Assembly: GCF_020595125.1 (NCBI RefSeq)
Contig: NZ_JACNMS010000001.1
Coordinates: forward strand, 558,001-622,000
Length of the DNA: 64,000 nucleotides
Direction of reading: 5' to 3'
Origin: Jeotgalibacillus aurantiacus
GTDB taxonomy: Bacteria; Bacillota; Bacilli; Bacillales; Jeotgalibacillaceae
Both the position numbers and the translations under genes were made by a program. Shown in pieces: positions 7,413-63,135 of the stretch. Below the pieces are notes generated by a model. It searched no databases. It was not told the origin of the DNA and saw only the letters and a program-made list of their open reading frames with translations. Within the stretch, counting starts at the first letter, position 1. Every line of letters begins with the position of its first letter.

Positions 7413-9584
7413 ATGGCTTATAAAAAATGGCTGTTTGCTGCAGCGGTGTTGCTGATCGCCGGCGGAGGAATTACTGCTTTTTTTCTTACATCAAAACCCG
7501 AACTGACAGGAACTGCATCAAGTGCTTCTTCTAAAATGGTATTCCCCGATCATACGTGGACATTCTATTTCACTGAGAAGATGAACAGTGACTCGATTAA
7601 TCAAGATACGGTGTTCATTGAAGATTCAGAAGGAAACAAGGTTGAGGTCTCCCTGACGCTGATCAATGAGAATCGATCGTTGAGAGTGGCTCCTCCTGAA
7701 GAAGGCTACACAGTCGGAGAGACCTATACGATGAGCTTTTCAGATGAATTGAAATCCTCTCTAGGGCTGAAGCTGAAGGAATCATCTTTCACCTTCACAA
7801 TTGTCGATGATCTCCCTTCCTTTCAGTCTGAAGAGGAAGTGAAGAATTACTTTGCTGCTGCGATGGAGAAACAAAGAGTGTTTATGGAATCAGATATGAT
7901 GGTTGAAGAGTCTTCTGCCGAGAGCTCAAACAGCTCCGCTGACATGGCTTCCAGCGGCGGCGAAGGAAGCGGAGGATACTCTGAAACGAACAATCAGGTG
8001 GAAGGGGTGAATGAAGCAGATATTGTCAAAACAGATGGTTCCTACATTTATCACCTGAACCAGAATCAGGATCTTTTAATTCACCGTATTCTGGAGTCTG
8101 GTGAGACAGAAAGAATTCAGGTGTTGTCATTTGAGCAGGCAAATTTCTACGGCAATCAGCTCTTCTTACATGAAAATACGTTAGTTGTTCTTGGAGATGC
8201 ATGGAGTGAAGTTGCAAAGAATGGACTCCCGGCGCATTCCGGAGTTACAAGTGCCTATATTTACGATGTCAGCGACCCTGCCAATCCTCAGCTACAGAGA
8301 GAGGTTGCCGCACAGGGACATATGATGAACGCACGAATGATTGGTGACAATCTCTATTTCATTACCGGTCATTACCCTGATGTGTGGCTTATGCAGGAGG
8401 AGCCTGAGAAGGTTGAAGTACTGCCATTCTTTAAGGATTCTACTGTATCAGAGGAGTACCAGAAGACGGCGGCTGAATCGATTAAGGTGTTCCCTGAATC
8501 CGAGGAGATAAATTACTCCACGATCACTTCCGTCAATGTTGCGGATCTGACCTTACCCGCTAAAACACAATCTTACCTTGGCGGCAGTGGAGAACTTTAT
8601 ATGTCGCAAAGTCACCTGTATATGGCTGCTTATTCATATGATATTCCTGAAAACACAGAAGCCTCCGATACTGCTGACACTTCGATGGATATCATGCCTG
8701 CAGGACGCTTTAACGCCAACACGAAGATTTATAAATTTGCGATTAACGATCTCGATGTTCAATTCGTGGCAGAAGGAACGGTTCGCGGGACAATTTTAAA
8801 CCAGTTTTCAATGGATGAGCATGAAGGCTACTTCCGCATCGTGACCACTGATGGTTCCACGTTTGGTGAGAACCGGGATTCAACGAATAACCTGTTTATT
8901 TTAGATGAGGGTATGAACATCACAGGCTCCGTTGAGGATCTGGCAATCGGTGAAAGAATCTATTCCGCACGGTTTATGGGTGATAAAGCGTATATGGTCA
9001 CCTTCCGGGAAACGGATCCGCTATTTGTCATCGATACAGCCGATCCAGCCAATCCTGAAGTACTCGGCGAATTGAAAATCCCGGGTTTCAGCAACTACCT
9101 GCATCCACTTGATGAAAATCATCTGATCGGGTTCGGTAATGAAACGTCCCTTTCGGCGACTAAACCGGGTGAACCACCACTCGTTTTACAGGAAGGAATG
9201 AAGATTTCTCTCTTTGATGTAACGGACTTCTCCAATCCTGTTGAAAAAGACGTTGAAGTCATTGGCGGCCGTGGTACGTATTCACCTATTATGCACGACC
9301 ACAAAGCACTGTTTCAGCATAAAGAAAGAAATCTGTACGGCTTTCCGATTAATCTGTATAACCAGGAAGACCTGAATAGTGAAATGGAATTTGTCGGTCA
9401 GGGTGCCATGGTGTATAAGATTACAACAGATGGAATCGAGCTTGCTGAAGAATATATTCAGGAAAAAGAGCCGAACCAGATGTATGAGGAGTACGAATCA
9501 ATGGTTCAGAGAATGATTTATGTTGATGACACGCTTTACACCATCAGCATGAAAGGCATTAATCATTATCCGCTGCCTGAATAA
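7413..9584 (+). CDS. Membrane-anchored beta-propeller protein with Ig-like domain
   Basis: A 723-residue exported protein. Residues about 5-25 form an uncleaved signal anchor. Residues about 30-120 resemble an SbsA-type Ig-like (Big_5) domain (VFPDHTWTFYFTEKMNSDSI...). After a low-complexity Ser/Gly linker (about 165-190), the rest is a C-terminal 'beta propeller' family region opening with NNQVEGVNEADIVKTDGSYIY, the family signature. It should sit on the outer face of the membrane; its function is unknown. The start at 7413 is chosen for AGGAGG 8 nt upstream; an upstream in-frame start adds a non-conserved segment. It has its own terminator. Confidence 0.8.
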   Translation: MAYKKWLFAAAVLLIAGGGITAFFLTSKPELTGTASSASSKMVFPDHTWTFYFTEKMNSDSINQDTVFIEDSEGNKVEVSLTLINENRSLRVAPPEEGYTVGETYTMSFSDELKSSLGLKLKESSFTFTIVDDLPSFQSEEEVKNYFAAAMEKQRVFMESDMMVEESSAESSNSSADMASSGGEGSGGYSETNNQVEGVNEADIVKTDGSYIYHLNQNQDLLIHRILESGETERIQVLSFEQANFYGNQLFLHENTLVVLGDAWSEVAKNGLPAHSGVTSAYIYDVSDPANPQLQREVAAQGHMMNARMIGDNLYFITGHYPDVWLMQEEPEKVEVLPFFKDSTVSEEYQKTAAESIKVFPESEEINYSTITSVNVADLTLPAKTQSYLGGSGELYMSQSHLYMAAYSYDIPENTEASDTADTSMDIMPAGRFNANTKIYKFAINDLDVQFVAEGTVRGTILNQFSMDEHEGYFRIVTTDGSTFGENRDSTNNLFILDEGMNITGSVEDLAIGERIYSARFMGDKAYMVTFRETDPLFVIDTADPANPEVLGELKIPGFSNYLHPLDENHLIGFGNETSLSATKPGEPPLVLQEGMKISLFDVTDFSNPVEKDVEVIGGRGTYSPIMHDHKALFQHKERNLYGFPINLYNQEDLNSEMEFVGQGAMVYKITTDGIELAEEYIQEKEPNQMYEEYESMVQRMIYVDDTLYTISMKGINHYPLPE

Positions 9585-9599
9585 ATCACCCATTTAACA

Positions 9600-9632
9600 A
9601 GCCCGGATCGAGTTGAAGATCCGGGCTTTTAT
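9600..9632 (+). terminator. Terminator of the beta-propeller gene
   Basis: AGCCCGGATC pairs with GATCCGGGCT around an 8-nt loop, followed by TTTATC. Confidence 0.9.
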
Positions 9633-9742
9633 CAATTGATATCAACAGATTCCAGATTTGCAATGCGCGTTCTTTGGTGTAAGAGGATCAAATTAATTAG
9701 TCACGAAATAAGATGGTTCATTGGGGAGCCCATACATTGAAC

Positions 9743-10412
9743 GCGCATCGACAGATTCCTGGATGGGATTGACAGTTTCTCCGGCGTTTGCGACAAAAAT
9801 GAAACAGCTAACAACAGAAAAGCAGGCTCAATCGACAAATTAGACTCACGCTGCAAGTGCTAACGACAGATTCAATCAGGCTAACGACAGAAAAGTGCAT
9901 GCTAGCGACAGAAAGTTTTAACGGAGTTTGCTCTTTCACAAAAAGAGACAATCTTTGACTCGAGAAGCGGACTGGACGGAAACGCCATGAGCGCATCGAC
10001 AGATTCCTGGATCCGGTCAACAGTTTCTCCGGCATTTACGACAAAAACGAAACAGCTAACAACAGAAAAGCAGGCTCAATCGACAAATTAGACTCACGCT
10101 GCAAGTGCTAACGACAGATTCAATCAGGCTAACGACAGAAAAGTGCATGCTAGCGACAGAAATTTTTAAGGGAGGAGTTTTCTCTTTCACAAAAGCAGAC
10201 AATCTTTGACTCGAGAAGCGGACTGGACGGAAACGCCATGAGCGCATCGACAGATTCCCGGATCCGGTCAACAGTTTCTCCGGCATTTACGACAAAAATG
10301 AAACAGCTAACAACAGAAAAGCAGGCTCAATCGACAAATTAGGCTCACGCTACAGGTGCTAACGACAGATTCAAACCGGCTAACAACAGAAAAGTGCATG
10401 GTTGCGACAGAA
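9743..10412. repeat. Three tandem ~250-bp copies, each holding a phased 5+3 core array
   Basis: Near-identical copies start at 9743, 9991 and 10242 (steps 248 and 251 bp); the third loses similarity after about 10412. Within each copy a core of the form ATCGACAG (variants AACGAC, GTCAAC, TACGAC) recurs. Copy 1 cores start at 9747, 9768, 9789, 9810, 9831, then 9862, 9883, 9904; copy 2 at 9995, 10016, 10037, 10058, 10079, then 10110, 10131, 10152; copy 3 at 10246, 10267, 10288, 10309, 10330, then 10361, 10382, 10403. That is five cores at 21 bp, one 31-bp step, then three at 21 bp, every time. Copies 1-2 and 2-3 are separated by a shared ~70-bp linker holding CTCGAGAAGCGGACTGGACG. A remnant (ATCAACAGATTCC) lies at 9641. 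No coding role is apparent. Confidence 0.9.
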
Positions 10413-10513
10413 ATCACAGCTATTGATCAGCTCGCCGTGTGGTCTCATCCTTCTTCTGAAGTCCCCATAAACCCACACGAATCCGGGCTTCTCTCTTGTC
10501 CTCTCTCCCCCTT

Positions 10514-12086: not shown

Positions 12087-12111
12087 CGGTGTAAGTTCTT
12101 TCAGATGGCCG

Positions 12112-12221
12112 TTCACAGGATTAAGGGGATGTTTCACAAAATTTGAATGACGGTTCTAATAATACGACGTTGGTTTCGCAAGATTTTGCTCAAGCTTCGC
12201 AGCATTTCACACCGCTTTCGT
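12112..12221. repeat. Phased six-core array, TTCGC (GCGAA) family
   Basis: TTCNN cores start at 12112, 12133, 12154, 12175, 12196 and 12217, exactly 21 bp apart. The best unit reads GGTTTCGCAAGATTTTG; degenerate units read TTCAC, TTCTA and TTCGT. The array begins about 25 bp after the rsuA terminator and fills most of the spacer before the MscS gene. Read on the minus strand the core is GCGAA, the same as in the arrays at 57820 and 59098. Confidence 0.8.
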
Positions 12222-12346
12222 AAAATCGTGACAAAAGACCCCCTCAATATCGCGATCAAAATTTATAAAATTCTATCAATTTTTGTTTCTATTTGTCAGC
12301 ACTAGGGAATTAAAAAGGTGATTACTCACTTTCAAGGAGGGATAGA

Positions 12347-23082: not shown

Positions 23083-23211
23083 ACCTCTTATCTCTCAGAC
23101 AAAAAATGTCTGTTGGATGTAGCACCGTGTCCCTGTTACCAAAATGGTAAACAGGGCCGGTTGCCGGGCTTCACAGGGCCAATTCCCTCAGCCAACTCTC
23201 GATAAGAGAAG
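23083..23211 (-). promoter_or_regulatory. SAM-I (S-box) riboswitch, leftward, mtnKA operon
   Basis: On the minus strand the aptamer shows P1 (CTTATC / GATAAG), GAGAGTTGGCTGAGGGA, the conserved GAAGCCCGGCAACC, a long P3 hairpin and GGTGCTACATCC. The terminator at 23033-23066 follows. High SAM should stop transcription of the Mo enzyme, mtnK, mtnA and perhaps the ABC importer. Confidence 0.95.
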
Positions 23212-23390: not shown

Positions 23391-23503
23391 CTCTTATAAA
23401 GAGCAGGTGGAGGGACGAGCCCGATGAAACCCGGCAACCTGTTTCAGCTTAACCGCTGATTCAAGGTGCTAATTCTCACAGCAATGGCTGAAGGATAAGA
23501 GGA
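23391..23503 (+). promoter_or_regulatory. SAM-I (S-box) riboswitch, rightward, mtnWXBD operon
   Basis: The aptamer shows CTCTTATAAAGAGCAGGTGGAG at its 5' end, then GATGAAACCCGGCAACC, AAGGTGCTAATTC and the closing GGATAAGAGG. An intrinsic terminator follows at 23522. It controls mtnW and the genes behind it. Confidence 0.95.
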
Positions 23504-23653: not shown

Positions 23654-23669
23654 AGTGCCGAAGGGATTT

Positions 23670-23852
23670 GTACTGTTTGAGTGAGTTATTGTATCGAATC
23701 AGCTTTTTATTGTACTGTTTCACTGCTTAATTCAATCGAATGAAGATTTTTTTGTACTGATACGACTTCACACCTTCATTTTTGTACTGTTCCTCACCCT
23801 TTTTGTACTGATCCGAATCATATTTGTATCGTTCCAACTTATCATTGTATTG
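23670..23852 (+). repeat. Phased 5+4 core array, GTACTG family
   Basis: Cores of the form TTTTTGTACTG or GTATCG start at 23670, 23691, 23712, 23733, 23754, then after 30 bp at 23784, 23805, 23826 and 23847. All other steps are 21 bp. The 23733 copy (CAATCG) is the most degenerate. The array lies between the S-box terminator and the mtnW ribosome site, so it is part of the mtnW mRNA leader when the riboswitch is open. Confidence 0.85.
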
Positions 23853-23906
23853 TTCAGTCCCCACCGCTCTCAAAATACTGATTTTATCACTGAAAGGATG
23901 CTTATC

Positions 23907-31276: not shown

Positions 31277-31531
31277 TGTCTTCACCCTTTACTATGTCGT
31301 TTTCACTATTAATAAATGTGCTGGAGCATTGCTAACTTGATGATCTTTCTTCATCTTTACCCTGATTTTATTATGATTATATCTGTTTTGAGGAAACTTT
31401 TAAAATGGTCAGACCACGGTGTTTTATTATGATAACAGATAGACGGAGTTTTTTTGTTGAGGAGATGTAAAGATTGGATTGAGTCAGAGAAATTCGGATG
31501 ATTATATGGAGCTGTCCGTGGTTTACTTGTC

Positions 31532-31717
31532 ATTCCTTCACAACACGAATTGATTCAGTCTTTTCAGCATTTTATTAAGTTCTTCCAGATTACATTTCCT
31601 TCTTTCCGGAATTTAATTCCTTCAATACAGCTTTTGAAGCTCATTTTCACTTCACTACAATTGCGGATTCCTTCTTTTCAACATTGGGATTCCTTCATTT
31701 CCGCCATTATTCCCTTC
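31532..31717 (+). repeat. Phased 5+4 core array, ATTCCTTC family
   Basis: Cores of the form ATTCCTTC start at 31532, 31553, 31574, 31595, 31616, then after 30 bp at 31646, 31667, 31689 and 31709/31710. Apart from a 1-bp wobble at the end, all short steps are 21 bp. Units 2 and 3 (ATTCAGTC, ATTAAGTT) are degenerate. The array follows the terminator of the leftward ABC operon and lies upstream of sqdB. Confidence 0.8.
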
Positions 31718-37478: not shown

Positions 37479-37731
37479 AATTATAAATGATTCAAGGATC
37501 AGGAGAGTACAAAATCAGATGGTGGCAAGCGAGTCAGGGCTGGTGGGAGCTGACACACACATCGTTTTTGGAAGCGCACCTGTGAGAAGGAAAACTGAAT
37601 TCAGTAGGTTTTCCCGCAGACGGCAGCGATAACGTCGGTAGCAGGAAGAGCATTAGTCTCTTCAATAAGAGTGGTACCGCGGATGTAAGCATTCGTCTCT
37701 TGCCTTTATGGCAGAGACGGGTGCTTTTTTT
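37479..37731 (+). promoter_or_regulatory. T-box leader, arginine-type, upstream of argS
   Basis: The leader has the T-box sequence AGAGTGGTACCGCGG (37668-37682), a specifier-loop AGAGTAC on the 5' side, and GAAGCGCACC on the 3' side. Reading the codon just before ACC gives CGC (37575-37577), an arginine codon, which agrees with the downstream gene. Uncharged tRNA-Arg should promote read-through. Confidence 0.9.
37689..37731 (+). terminator. T-box terminator of argS
   Basis: GCATTCGTCTCTTGCC pairs with GGCAGAGACGGGTGC and is followed by TTTTTTT. The 5' strand can instead pair with the T-box bulge region as antiterminator. Confidence 0.88.
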
Positions 37732-39436: not shown

Positions 39437-39472
39437 TGCTGAAGCAAGTGTGCGGTTGGTCCGCTGCGGAGG

Positions 39473-39582
39473 TTCGTGGGATTTTGGGGGAGGTTCACAG
39501 AATTTTGGCCGGGGTTCATAAGATTTTCAGGATGGTTCGCGAGATTCTGCTGATGGTTCGCAAGATTTCCGCACACGTTCGC
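39473..39582. repeat. Phased six-core array, GGTTCGC family, after argS
   Basis: TTCGC/TTCAC/TTCAT cores start at 39473, 39494, 39515, 39536, 39557 and 39578, exactly 21 bp apart. The better units read GGTTCGCAAGATTTC. It starts about 40 bp after the argS stop, with no separate argS terminator between. Because 21 bp is seven codons, its frames give spurious seven-residue repeat peptides. Confidence 0.88.
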
Positions 39583-39643
39583 GAAATTGTACCAAAAGAC
39601 CTATACACTCATCACCTTAAATAGAGGTCAAAAACGCAGTAAT

Positions 39644-39805
39644 GTCGATAGCGCAGTCACGCCTGTTGATAGAAACATGATTTACGTCGATAGCTTTTTA
39701 AAGAAAGCATGAATTGTCAATATTAGACCGCGTCTTGTTGATCGACACTTGAATTCTATCGATAGCGAACCTCAAAATGTGGATAGCAGCAAAGTTATTG
39801 TTAAT
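39644..39805. repeat. Phased 3+5 core array, GTCGATAG family
   Basis: GTCGAT-type cores start at 39644, 39665, 39686, then after 30 bp at 39716, 39737, 39758, 39779 and 39800, with all other steps 21 bp. On the minus strand this reads five cores (ATCGAC), a 30-bp step, three cores, as in the array at 9747. It follows the six-core array in the same convergent spacer. Confidence 0.88.
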
Positions 39806-39869
39806 AGAAAAACACCTGCTTAAGCATGCACACGAGCTGTTAAAAGTACATTCCTTCAACATAGTATAA

Positions 39870-48508: not shown

Positions 48509-48566
48509 TGATTGAATGATTAGGACATAAAGGTCATGCATTGAGAGCAGCCGAGTGGCATCGTCT

Positions 48567-48749
48567 ATTCACAGCTTTACCGGCTCTATGAACAGAAATG
48601 AAGTTGCTATCAACAGAAAAGAAGTGCCTATTGACGTAACTTACCCCTCTACCGACAACTTCTAACTGCTTAATCACACTATCGACAATAACCAGCCCTG
48701 TATCGACAGAACGGCGTGATCTTACGACGATTTGATTCATTCTTTCAAC
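48567..48749. repeat. Phased 5+4 core array, ATCGACAG family
   Basis: Cores related to CTATCGACAGAA start at 48567, 48588, 48609, 48630, 48651, then after 30 bp at 48681, 48702, 48723 and 48744; the other steps are 21 bp. It lies downstream of the vanZ gene, opposite to its direction of transcription. The best units are 48609 (CTATCAACAGAAA) and 48702 (GTATCGACAGAA). Confidence 0.85.
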
Positions 48750-48842
48750 ACTTATCCGCTTATCTTAATTTACTCAAATTACAAATGCCCGACTTCTCTT
48801 AGGATTTTTATTAAGAGGAGAGATACCGAGCAAGCGAAGCAC

Positions 48843-57775: not shown

Positions 57776-57819
57776 GTGGAGAATAGCGGGCGATGGCGTA
57801 GGACTTAATGCCTTATTTT

Positions 57820-57929
57820 GCGAACCAGCCTCGACATTTTGCGAACAAAGGTGAAAATCTTTTGAACGTCCGTCAATATTCTACGAACCTTCTATAAAAT
57901 ATTGCGAACCTCCGGACAAATCTTATGAA
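57820..57929. repeat. Phased six-core array, GCGAACC family
   Basis: GCGAA-type cores start at 57820, 57841, 57862, 57883, 57904 and 57925, exactly 21 bp apart. The best units read TATTTTGCGAACC and AATATTGCGAACC; the variable base positions give TTGAA, ACGAA and ATGAA. It lies between the pulA terminator and the lactate dehydrogenase gene. Confidence 0.88.
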
Positions 57930-57961
57930 CCTCACCCGCCCCGTAACCTTACATTCTTTGA

Positions 57962-59026: not shown

Positions 59027-59097
59027 TTTGGTAGTTTGCCGCAGCATCCTGAGGATCTTTTTTTCGGTGCAAATAGTAGGTATATTCTCACTATCCG

Positions 59098-59207
59098 GCG
59101 AAACTGAGCTTAAATCTTGCGAAAGACTCACAACATTCTGCGAAACAGTCCGCATATTTTACGAACCTTACCCCAAATCTTATGAACCACCCGCAATATT
59201 CTGCGAA
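59098..59207. repeat. Phased six-core array, GCGAA family, first block
   Basis: Cores start at 59098, 59119, 59140, 59161, 59182 and 59203, exactly 21 bp apart. Units read AAATCTTGCGAAA, ACATTCTGCGAAA and CATATTTTACGAACC. It lies between the ldh terminator and a second block of the same kind. Confidence 0.9.
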
Positions 59208-59320
59208 CCCTCTTCCCCCTGTTTGCCGCGGAACCGGAATCGTTACAACCTCACTCTGCTCCGCGTCATCCTTATTGAACTTCCATCCGGATCACGTGGT
59301 GAGTATATCGTCACAACCCT

Positions 59321-59430
59321 GCGAAATATAGCTGACATTTTACGAACGAGGACGAATATCCTTTGAAACAGCCTGCATATGTTGCGAACCTCCAGCCAAA
59401 TCTTACGAACCACGGGCATCATTCTGCGAA
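59321..59430. repeat. Phased six-core array, GCGAA family, second block
   Basis: Cores start at 59321, 59342, 59363, 59384, 59405 and 59426, exactly 21 bp apart. It is not in phase with the first block (118 bp between nearest cores). The 59208-59320 stretch between them holds only loose matches. The array ends at the ABC exporter terminator. Confidence 0.9.
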
Positions 59431-59438
59431 CCTCCACA

Positions 59439-62867: not shown

Positions 62868-62886
62868 TGTGAGTTGATATTATATC

Positions 62887-63069
62887 GTTGATAGCACGCG
62901 AATTTCTGTCGATAGATGGAATATTTCTGTTGATAATATAGACATTAGTGTTGATGGAGTGTCCGGAAAAGCAAAAGTTGTTGATAGCACACAGCTTTCT
63001 GTCGATAGACGCTAGGATGCTGTCGATAACTCCTCTGTTTTTGTCGATAGCTTCCAAAAATCTGTTGAT
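62887..63069. repeat. Phased 4+5 core array, GTCGATAG family
   Basis: GTCGAT/GTTGAT cores start at 62887, 62908, 62929, 62950, then after 30 bp at 62980, 63001, 63022, 63043 and 63064; all other steps are 21 bp. Good units read TTTCTGTCGATAG. On the minus strand it is five cores, a 30-bp step and four cores, the mirror image of the array at 48567. It lies between the convergent amylase and aspartate kinase genes. Confidence 0.92.
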
Positions 63070-63135
63070 AGCTAAAAATTCGTCATGACCGCTCCCCTTC
63101 ACTCTCTAATGCGGACCATACATATCCAGCCTACT

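Follow-up and report, generated by a model that had tools for sequence, protein, structure and literature searches.

A triplicated 21-bp direct-repeat array in Jeotgalibacillus aurantiacus and its place in a dispersed intergenic family scarcely represented in the terminus region

STAR elements of Staphylococcus aureus and Staphylococcus lugdunensis are dispersed intergenic direct repeats built on a short conserved core, T(G/A/T)TGTTG(G/T)GGCCC(C/A), which is 14 bp long and GC-rich. The repeats vary in number and lie at least 40 bp apart, their spacers are stable within a lineage and specific to a locus, and the elements undergo local expansion and contraction as well as species-specific amplification (PMC3532100). 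The sites recognized by Noc in Bacillus subtilis and by SlmA in Escherichia coli are sequence specific, occupy tens of chromosomal loci, and are underrepresented in Ter (PMC4726725). RacA ram and parS sites, likewise multiple and distant from the terminus, label the origin half of the chromosome, where they are clustered near oriC and not phased (PMC4949633), and REP/BIME sequences are intergenic, multicopy, foldable palindromes, enriched between convergent and codirectional genes and depleted between divergent ones; E. coli REPs are targets of gyrase (PMC3733652), and a supercoil-sink role has been proposed for gyrase at E. coli BIMEs.

The window analyzed here is a 64,000-nucleotide stretch of the J. 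aurantiacus genome (contig NZ_JACNMS010000001.1, positions 558,001 to 622,000), and between 9745 and 10413 a single member of a large array family is present in it three times over. The family is apparently undescribed: literature searches yielded no description of such arrays and nothing relevant on intergenic repeats in Jeotgalibacillus. Among known repeat classes STAR elements come closest, in that the arrays, too, are dispersed intergenic direct repeats with a short core and locus-specific spacers, and they likewise show changes in local copy number and amplification in particular species. The arrays differ from STAR elements in their 8-bp spacers, their fixed unit number and layout, the sharing of layouts by several cores, and their avoidance of the terminus, and their cores (CTATC[GA]ACAGAAA and others, at a 21-bp period) match the STAR consensus in neither sequence nor spacing. 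The likeness to Noc and SlmA sites is best taken as analogy and not as membership, since those sites are single 14-bp palindromes with one known, division-inhibiting protein each, whereas here several nonpalindromic cores stand in direct-repeat arrays of eight, nine, or six. In contrast to ram and parS sites, the arrays cover most of both chromosome arms, and unlike REP/BIME sequences they show no conserved fold or inverted repeats; no consensus pairs were found, and around the window cluster the inverted repeats were only short and scattered. In CRISPR arrays, which lie next to cas genes, repeats of about 23 to 47 bp alternate with unique spacers of comparable length; here, a 13-bp core and an 8-bp spacer recur in a fixed eight or nine units at at least 52 loci. 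Plasmid iterons are direct repeats about two helical turns apart that hold an initiator protein on one DNA face, and they occur once per replicon, beside the rep gene; unlike iterons, the arrays described here are found at dozens of chromosomal loci.

The triplicated stretch and its empty counterpart

TRF resolves positions 9743 to 10414 as a single tandem array (period 251, 2.7 copies, 93% matches), which bears out the original prediction of three nearly identical units. Copy 1 (9745 to 9914, plus strand) has cores at 9745, 9766, 9787, 9808, and 9829, then a 31-bp step, and further cores at 9860, 9881, and 9902. Copy 2 (9993 to 10162, plus strand) and copy 3 (10244 to 10413, plus strand) have the same layout, so that the core spacings are 21-21-21-21-31-21-21 bp in all three units, precisely the plan of five cores, a 31-bp step, and three cores that had been proposed. 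Between the copies lie linker 1 (78 bp, 9915 to 9992), which is specific to the window locus, and linker 2 (81 bp, 10163 to 10243), neither with an assigned strand. This CTCGAGAAGCGGACTGGACG-bearing linker thus occurs twice in the window, and the two linkers are 94% identical, in agreement with their predicted conservation. Copies 1 and 2 are 95% identical in the cores and 95% in the spacers, meaning that their cores are no better preserved than their spacers (0.952 versus 0.955); copies 1 and 3 are 92% identical in the cores and 88% in the spacers. The exact copy number may reflect assembly limits, but the copies differ at several percent of positions and hence are not artefacts of one copy. 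A decayed further copy, proposed to start at 9641, is unsupported: a single core-like 13-mer lies at 9639 (score 11.2), and the region from 9580 to 9740 contains no further unit and no homology to linker or array beyond 9-bp words.

Array and linker had also been regarded as one amplifying module with the linker setting its boundaries. Amplification as one piece does hold, and it recurs elsewhere: in the stretches read, tandem clusters with periods of 216 to 268 bp were present at nine loci, seven of them triplets (the window, six others) and two doublets; the clusters include those at L096, L097, L098, L104, L115, and the window locus. The linkers of the nine clusters, 46 to 99 bp long, are mutually unrelated and different at every locus, which marks them as co-duplicated local DNA and disposes of the linker as a boundary. 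The true unit is the element itself, five cores, a 30- or 31-bp step, and three or four more cores, which is single at most loci, rather than the array together with the window linker. The two alternatives named in the original prediction, a known mobile element and a coding repeat, were not borne out by searches of phages, plasmids, and Rfam or by a comparison of open frames with spacer-shuffled controls, and the 60-bp flanks of the elements show no conservation resembling the terminal inverted repeats of a transposon or MITE. The window triplication is therefore a local tandem duplication in which an element was copied along with the DNA beside it, and the expansion to three copies at 9745 to 10413 probably came about through replication slippage or unequal recombination.

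The sister species (G004), which is collinear with J. aurantiacus (G000) and about 92% identical to it, carries a single element at four loci where J. aurantiacus has three, and no element at all at the window locus. There, the stretch from 9629 to 10480 is missing and a single copy of the 10-bp sequence ATCCGGGCTT is kept. In J. aurantiacus, one copy of ATCCGGGCTT forms the left edge of the absent stretch (9619 to 9628), where it is the right arm of the upstream gene's terminator, and a second copy, without assigned strand, lies on the right (10481 to 10490). An insertion and a deletion between the repeats both fit this arrangement, the 10-bp repeat being either a target-site duplication or deletion microhomology, and at another empty site the edges carry only a 3-bp direct repeat. 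At the same intergenic site, the congeners G008 and G011 carry 21-bp arrays with GTAATCTCCTGAACC, and G007 carries another 21-bp array. Duplication on other scales was seen elsewhere. In the element at L110:9637-9827, units 1 to 4 resemble units 6 to 9, spacers included, at an offset of 114 bp, which suggests that the layout of five cores, a 30-bp step, and four cores can arise via duplication of half an element, and six-core CACGAACT arrays are tandemly amplified at L161:14404-15090 (about 194 bp, four copies) and at L114:3220-3680 (about 176 bp, three copies).

Cores, layouts, and conservation of the arrays

The family to which the triplicated element belongs, here called the CGACAG family, has a 13-bp core, CTATC[GA]ACAGAAA, followed by 8 bp without information (position weight matrix gCTATC[GA]ACAGAAA). 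Pairwise spacings between cores peak at 21, 30, 42, 51, 63, 72, 93, 114, and 135, as given by five cores 21 bp apart, one step of 30 bp (54 elements) or 31 bp (7 elements), and three or four more cores at 21 bp. Genome-wide, a two-core pattern with 21-bp spacing has 426 matches versus 106 for the reversed pattern, while the same pattern at a control spacing of 20 bp has 77 versus 66. A template of the layout found 61 elements in 850 kb of J. aurantiacus and 21 in 393 kb of the sister species, and none in 278 kb of other congeners, in 400 kb of relatives from the same order, or in shuffled or reversed sequence. A sequence-only model, scored on up to 150 candidates per genome so that its counts are lower bounds, matched at least 104 times in J. 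aurantiacus and at least 47 times in the sister species, with no match in ten other congeners; merging of its listed positions leaves at least 52 loci in J. aurantiacus. The existence of the family and its layout is thus virtually certain. The family is carried by 2 of 12 congeners and is absent from 10 of the 11 congeners of J. aurantiacus. BLASTN with the element returned nothing in 40 relatives, because only the cores are common between loci, and outside Jeotgalibacillus sp. R-1-5s-1, which carries a full array, a search of 84,980 genomes and of viral contigs with the exact two-core pattern gave only chance single pairs. Copies at different loci have no spacers in common, and spacers are no more alike within an element (0.277) than between elements (0.266), showing that the units did not arise from one another by recent copying. 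Besides the triplicate, the window contains three single CGACAG elements, at 39618 to 39807 (minus strand, between convergent genes, and present in the sister species), at 48565 to 48754 (plus strand, 30-bp break), and at 62882 to 63071 (minus strand, 30-bp break, between convergent genes).

Nearly all of the elements read in the sister species share their loci with J. aurantiacus. For 19 orthologous elements, identity was 0.888 in the cores, 0.793 in the spacers, and 0.703 in the flanks (core versus spacer, p = 6e-13), a comparison that somewhat favors the cores in that most pairs were chosen because both species have the element. Twenty arrays with other cores, picked from J. aurantiacus alone, gave 0.913 for cores and 0.841 for spacers (p = 8e-6). 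In the 19 orthologous elements, gap columns number 72 in about 3,200 inside the elements versus 411 in about 2,900 in the flanks, the ACA positions of the core are 95 to 100% identical between the two species, and core differences fall on both lineages (80 versus 62). These data point to purifying selection acting on core and phase at fixed loci.

The geometry is shared by other cores. A core-free scan for five-unit similarity at a fixed period found 119 peaks at period 21 in J. aurantiacus and 0 to 5 at each of the others between 17 and 25 bp. Over all genomes read, more than 100 such peaks have cores other than CGACAG, a few of which lie in coding or low-complexity sequence. Arrays with GAAGGAAT and TACAAT cores also follow the layout of five cores, a 30-bp step, and four cores, the former with one 22-bp step; in the window, this layout is seen with the core TTGTACTGTTC at 23661 to 23860 (plus strand) and with a third core, ATTCCTTC, at 31529 to 31710 (plus strand). 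Two SAM riboswitches (23085 to 23208, minus strand, and 23391 to 23501, plus strand) lie upstream of a TACAAT-type 21-bp array in the window, and a T-box leader lies at 37486 to 37703. A second layout consists of six cores at 21 bp, represented in the window by AAATCTTGCGAACC cores at 39471 to 39589 (minus strand) and by arrays of the same type at 12110 to 12228 (minus strand), 57813 to 57931, 59091 to 59209, and 59314 to 59432 (all plus strand). Of 33 layouts counted for GCGAACC cores, 25 consist of exactly six units spaced by 21 bp; CACGAACT and GACCACT cores form about six, and arrays of six units built on still other cores (TTTTCTAAGAACA) occur in G007 and G009. G015, which belongs to a different family of the same order, has similar 21-bp arrays with cores such as AAATnTnnCGCATAAAC (L237 and L248), and the phenomenon therefore extends beyond Jeotgalibacillus, although several other members of the order that were sampled had no 21-bp arrays. 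Steps of 20 to 22 bp and of 30 to 31 bp correspond to about two and three helical turns, and none near 26 bp was seen; judged from sequence, these lengths suggest recognition on one face of the DNA.

Placement among genes and along the chromosome

With ORF-based gene calls and a background drawn from the same stretches, 43 array loci are flanked by convergent genes in 22 cases, by codirectional genes in 20, and by divergent genes in 1, compared to 59, 134, and 62 for intergenic regions of at least 150 bp. Many arrays sit beyond terminators, and the arrays avoid divergent promoter regions.

In J. aurantiacus, dnaA is at C1:980869, and a Bacillus-type dif site, an exact match to the degenerate pattern, is at C2:342113. 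Contig C2 makes up 26.6% of the genome, and it carries 2 of the 52 CGACAG loci (p = 2e-5), none of the 40 GCGAACC loci (p = 4e-6), and none of the 45 GAAGGAAT loci (p = 9e-7). For the three families pooled, 2 of 137 loci are on C2 against 36.5 expected (p = 4.8e-16), an underrepresentation in the terminus region like that of Noc and SlmA sites. As a control, an unrelated GC-rich dispersed repeat has 14 of 50 matches on C2 (Fisher p = 1.6e-7 versus the arrays). This repeat, of about 257 bp, was noted at L114:10071-10327 (G000:C5:28071-28327); its 49 other matches are evenly spread, terminus contig included, and its copies are 72 to 100% identical, some in tandem pairs. In G007, another species, the chromosome is a single 3.52-Mb contig on which dif lies at 1,725,813, and the local core pattern there, from a family different from CGACAG, has 164 matches versus 2 for the control. 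Among the matches listed, which are complete for zero or one mismatch, all lie within 34 to 754 kb and 2354 to 3479 kb, leaving the 1.6 Mb around dif empty, with none closer than 628 kb to dif (p = 2.7e-6). Overall, hardly any arrays lie in the terminus region. Their loss from there could alternatively reflect a higher turnover in that region.

A candidate role and its rivals

The fixed layouts, the selection acting on cores and their phase, the location between genes, and the avoidance of the terminus are best explained if these are putative docking or binding-site arrays for a candidate nucleoid protein, with a distribution like that of Noc and SlmA sites, a reading to which we give a little less than an even chance. 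An element would be a row of sites on one helix face for a sequence-specific protein complex, the sites being spaced by two turns except for a single step of three, or forming an unbroken run of six, and the hundreds of such sites, spread over dozens of intergenic loci, would mark the non-terminus chromosome for the protein; candidate roles are nucleoid occlusion, compaction, or domain organization. For NBS/SBS arrays put into the terminus, delayed division or altered nucleoid shape has been reported. Recognition of the arrays at the level of DNA, as such, is probable, and a function tied to chromosome position is the more tentative part of the proposal, with the balance tilting slightly against it. 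The several core families per genome would need either several proteins or one protein with several specificities, and 10 of 11 congeners lack the CGACAG family, so that if the function is general, its sequence must turn over fast.

The arrays could instead be selfish repeats like STAR or REP that spread into silent intergenic DNA, without host function, the terminus gap then being a bias of insertion or loss. Dozens of dispersed copies, amplification in particular species (CGACAG in 2 of 12 congeners), a placement that is intergenic and shuns promoters, local changes in copy number, and an empty site bordered by a 10-bp direct repeat are what such repeats would leave behind. We nevertheless consider this account unlikely, though a serious competitor. 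The loci held in common with the sister species leave room for little recent movement, purifying selection on cores and phase at fixed loci is unexpected for a dead copy, spacers are not shared across loci, and the arrays show no conservation like that of terminal inverted repeats in their 60-bp flanks, no associated gene, and no match in BLASTN searches against phages and plasmids; moreover, an unrelated dispersed repeat does occur on the terminus contig. Placement could speak instead for transcription devices, that is, protein roadblocks or supercoil sinks that insulate convergent genes: the arrays favor convergent and downstream positions just past terminators and are almost lacking from divergent regions, multisite arrays would suit roadblocks, and REPs are placed likewise (PMC3733652). 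Genes also converge near the terminus, however, so that insulation alone leaves the exclusion of three families from C2 unexplained, and gyrase would need no family-specific 13-bp cores; we rate this possibility as rather improbable.

The remaining accounts concern the 21-bp period itself. The tandem duplicates in the window, and 21 bp as a plausible slippage unit, might suggest a neutral minisatellite that expanded through slippage and is now decaying. That explanation is contradicted by the spacers, which are as different within as between elements, by the identical cores and fixed layout at at least 52 loci, by the near absence of periods other than 21, and by the selection on cores, and it deserves very little credence. 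Equally remote is the idea that the arrays are transcribed as a repeat RNA or code for repeated units of seven residues. Both 21 and 30 are divisible by three, and two reading frames are open a little more often than in spacer-shuffled controls (uncorrected p = 0.045 and 0.02), but no frame is open in as many as half of the elements, TAA occurs in the core, and the 31-bp break in seven elements shifts the frame; with no clear excess of open frames over those controls, a coding repeat was rejected. As for an RNA, many arrays lie past terminators, Rfam has no match on them, and RNAalifold found no consensus pair and no consensus fold.

Even if the arrays were selfish, their exact, species-independent layout and their avoidance of a large share of the chromosome would still go beyond the predictions of current repeat models. 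Under the proposed docking-site reading, several parallel and fast-evolving sets of chromosome address labels would coexist in the genus under a common geometry, and a bait of 190 bp or 126 bp would be a direct handle for pulling down the protein. The arrays would also offer a natural test of how DNA-binding specificity changes together with hundreds of genomic sites. In its widest form, which we put forward as speculation that is possible but has the odds against it, Jeotgalibacillus, and probably other Caryophanales, would have a previously undescribed chromosome-marking system with two array classes (five cores, a 30-bp step, and four cores; six cores at 21 bp), whose fast-diverging cores would be read by cognate proteins that keep the same oligomeric geometry; by staying out of the terminus, the arrays may couple nucleoid layout to division or segregation.
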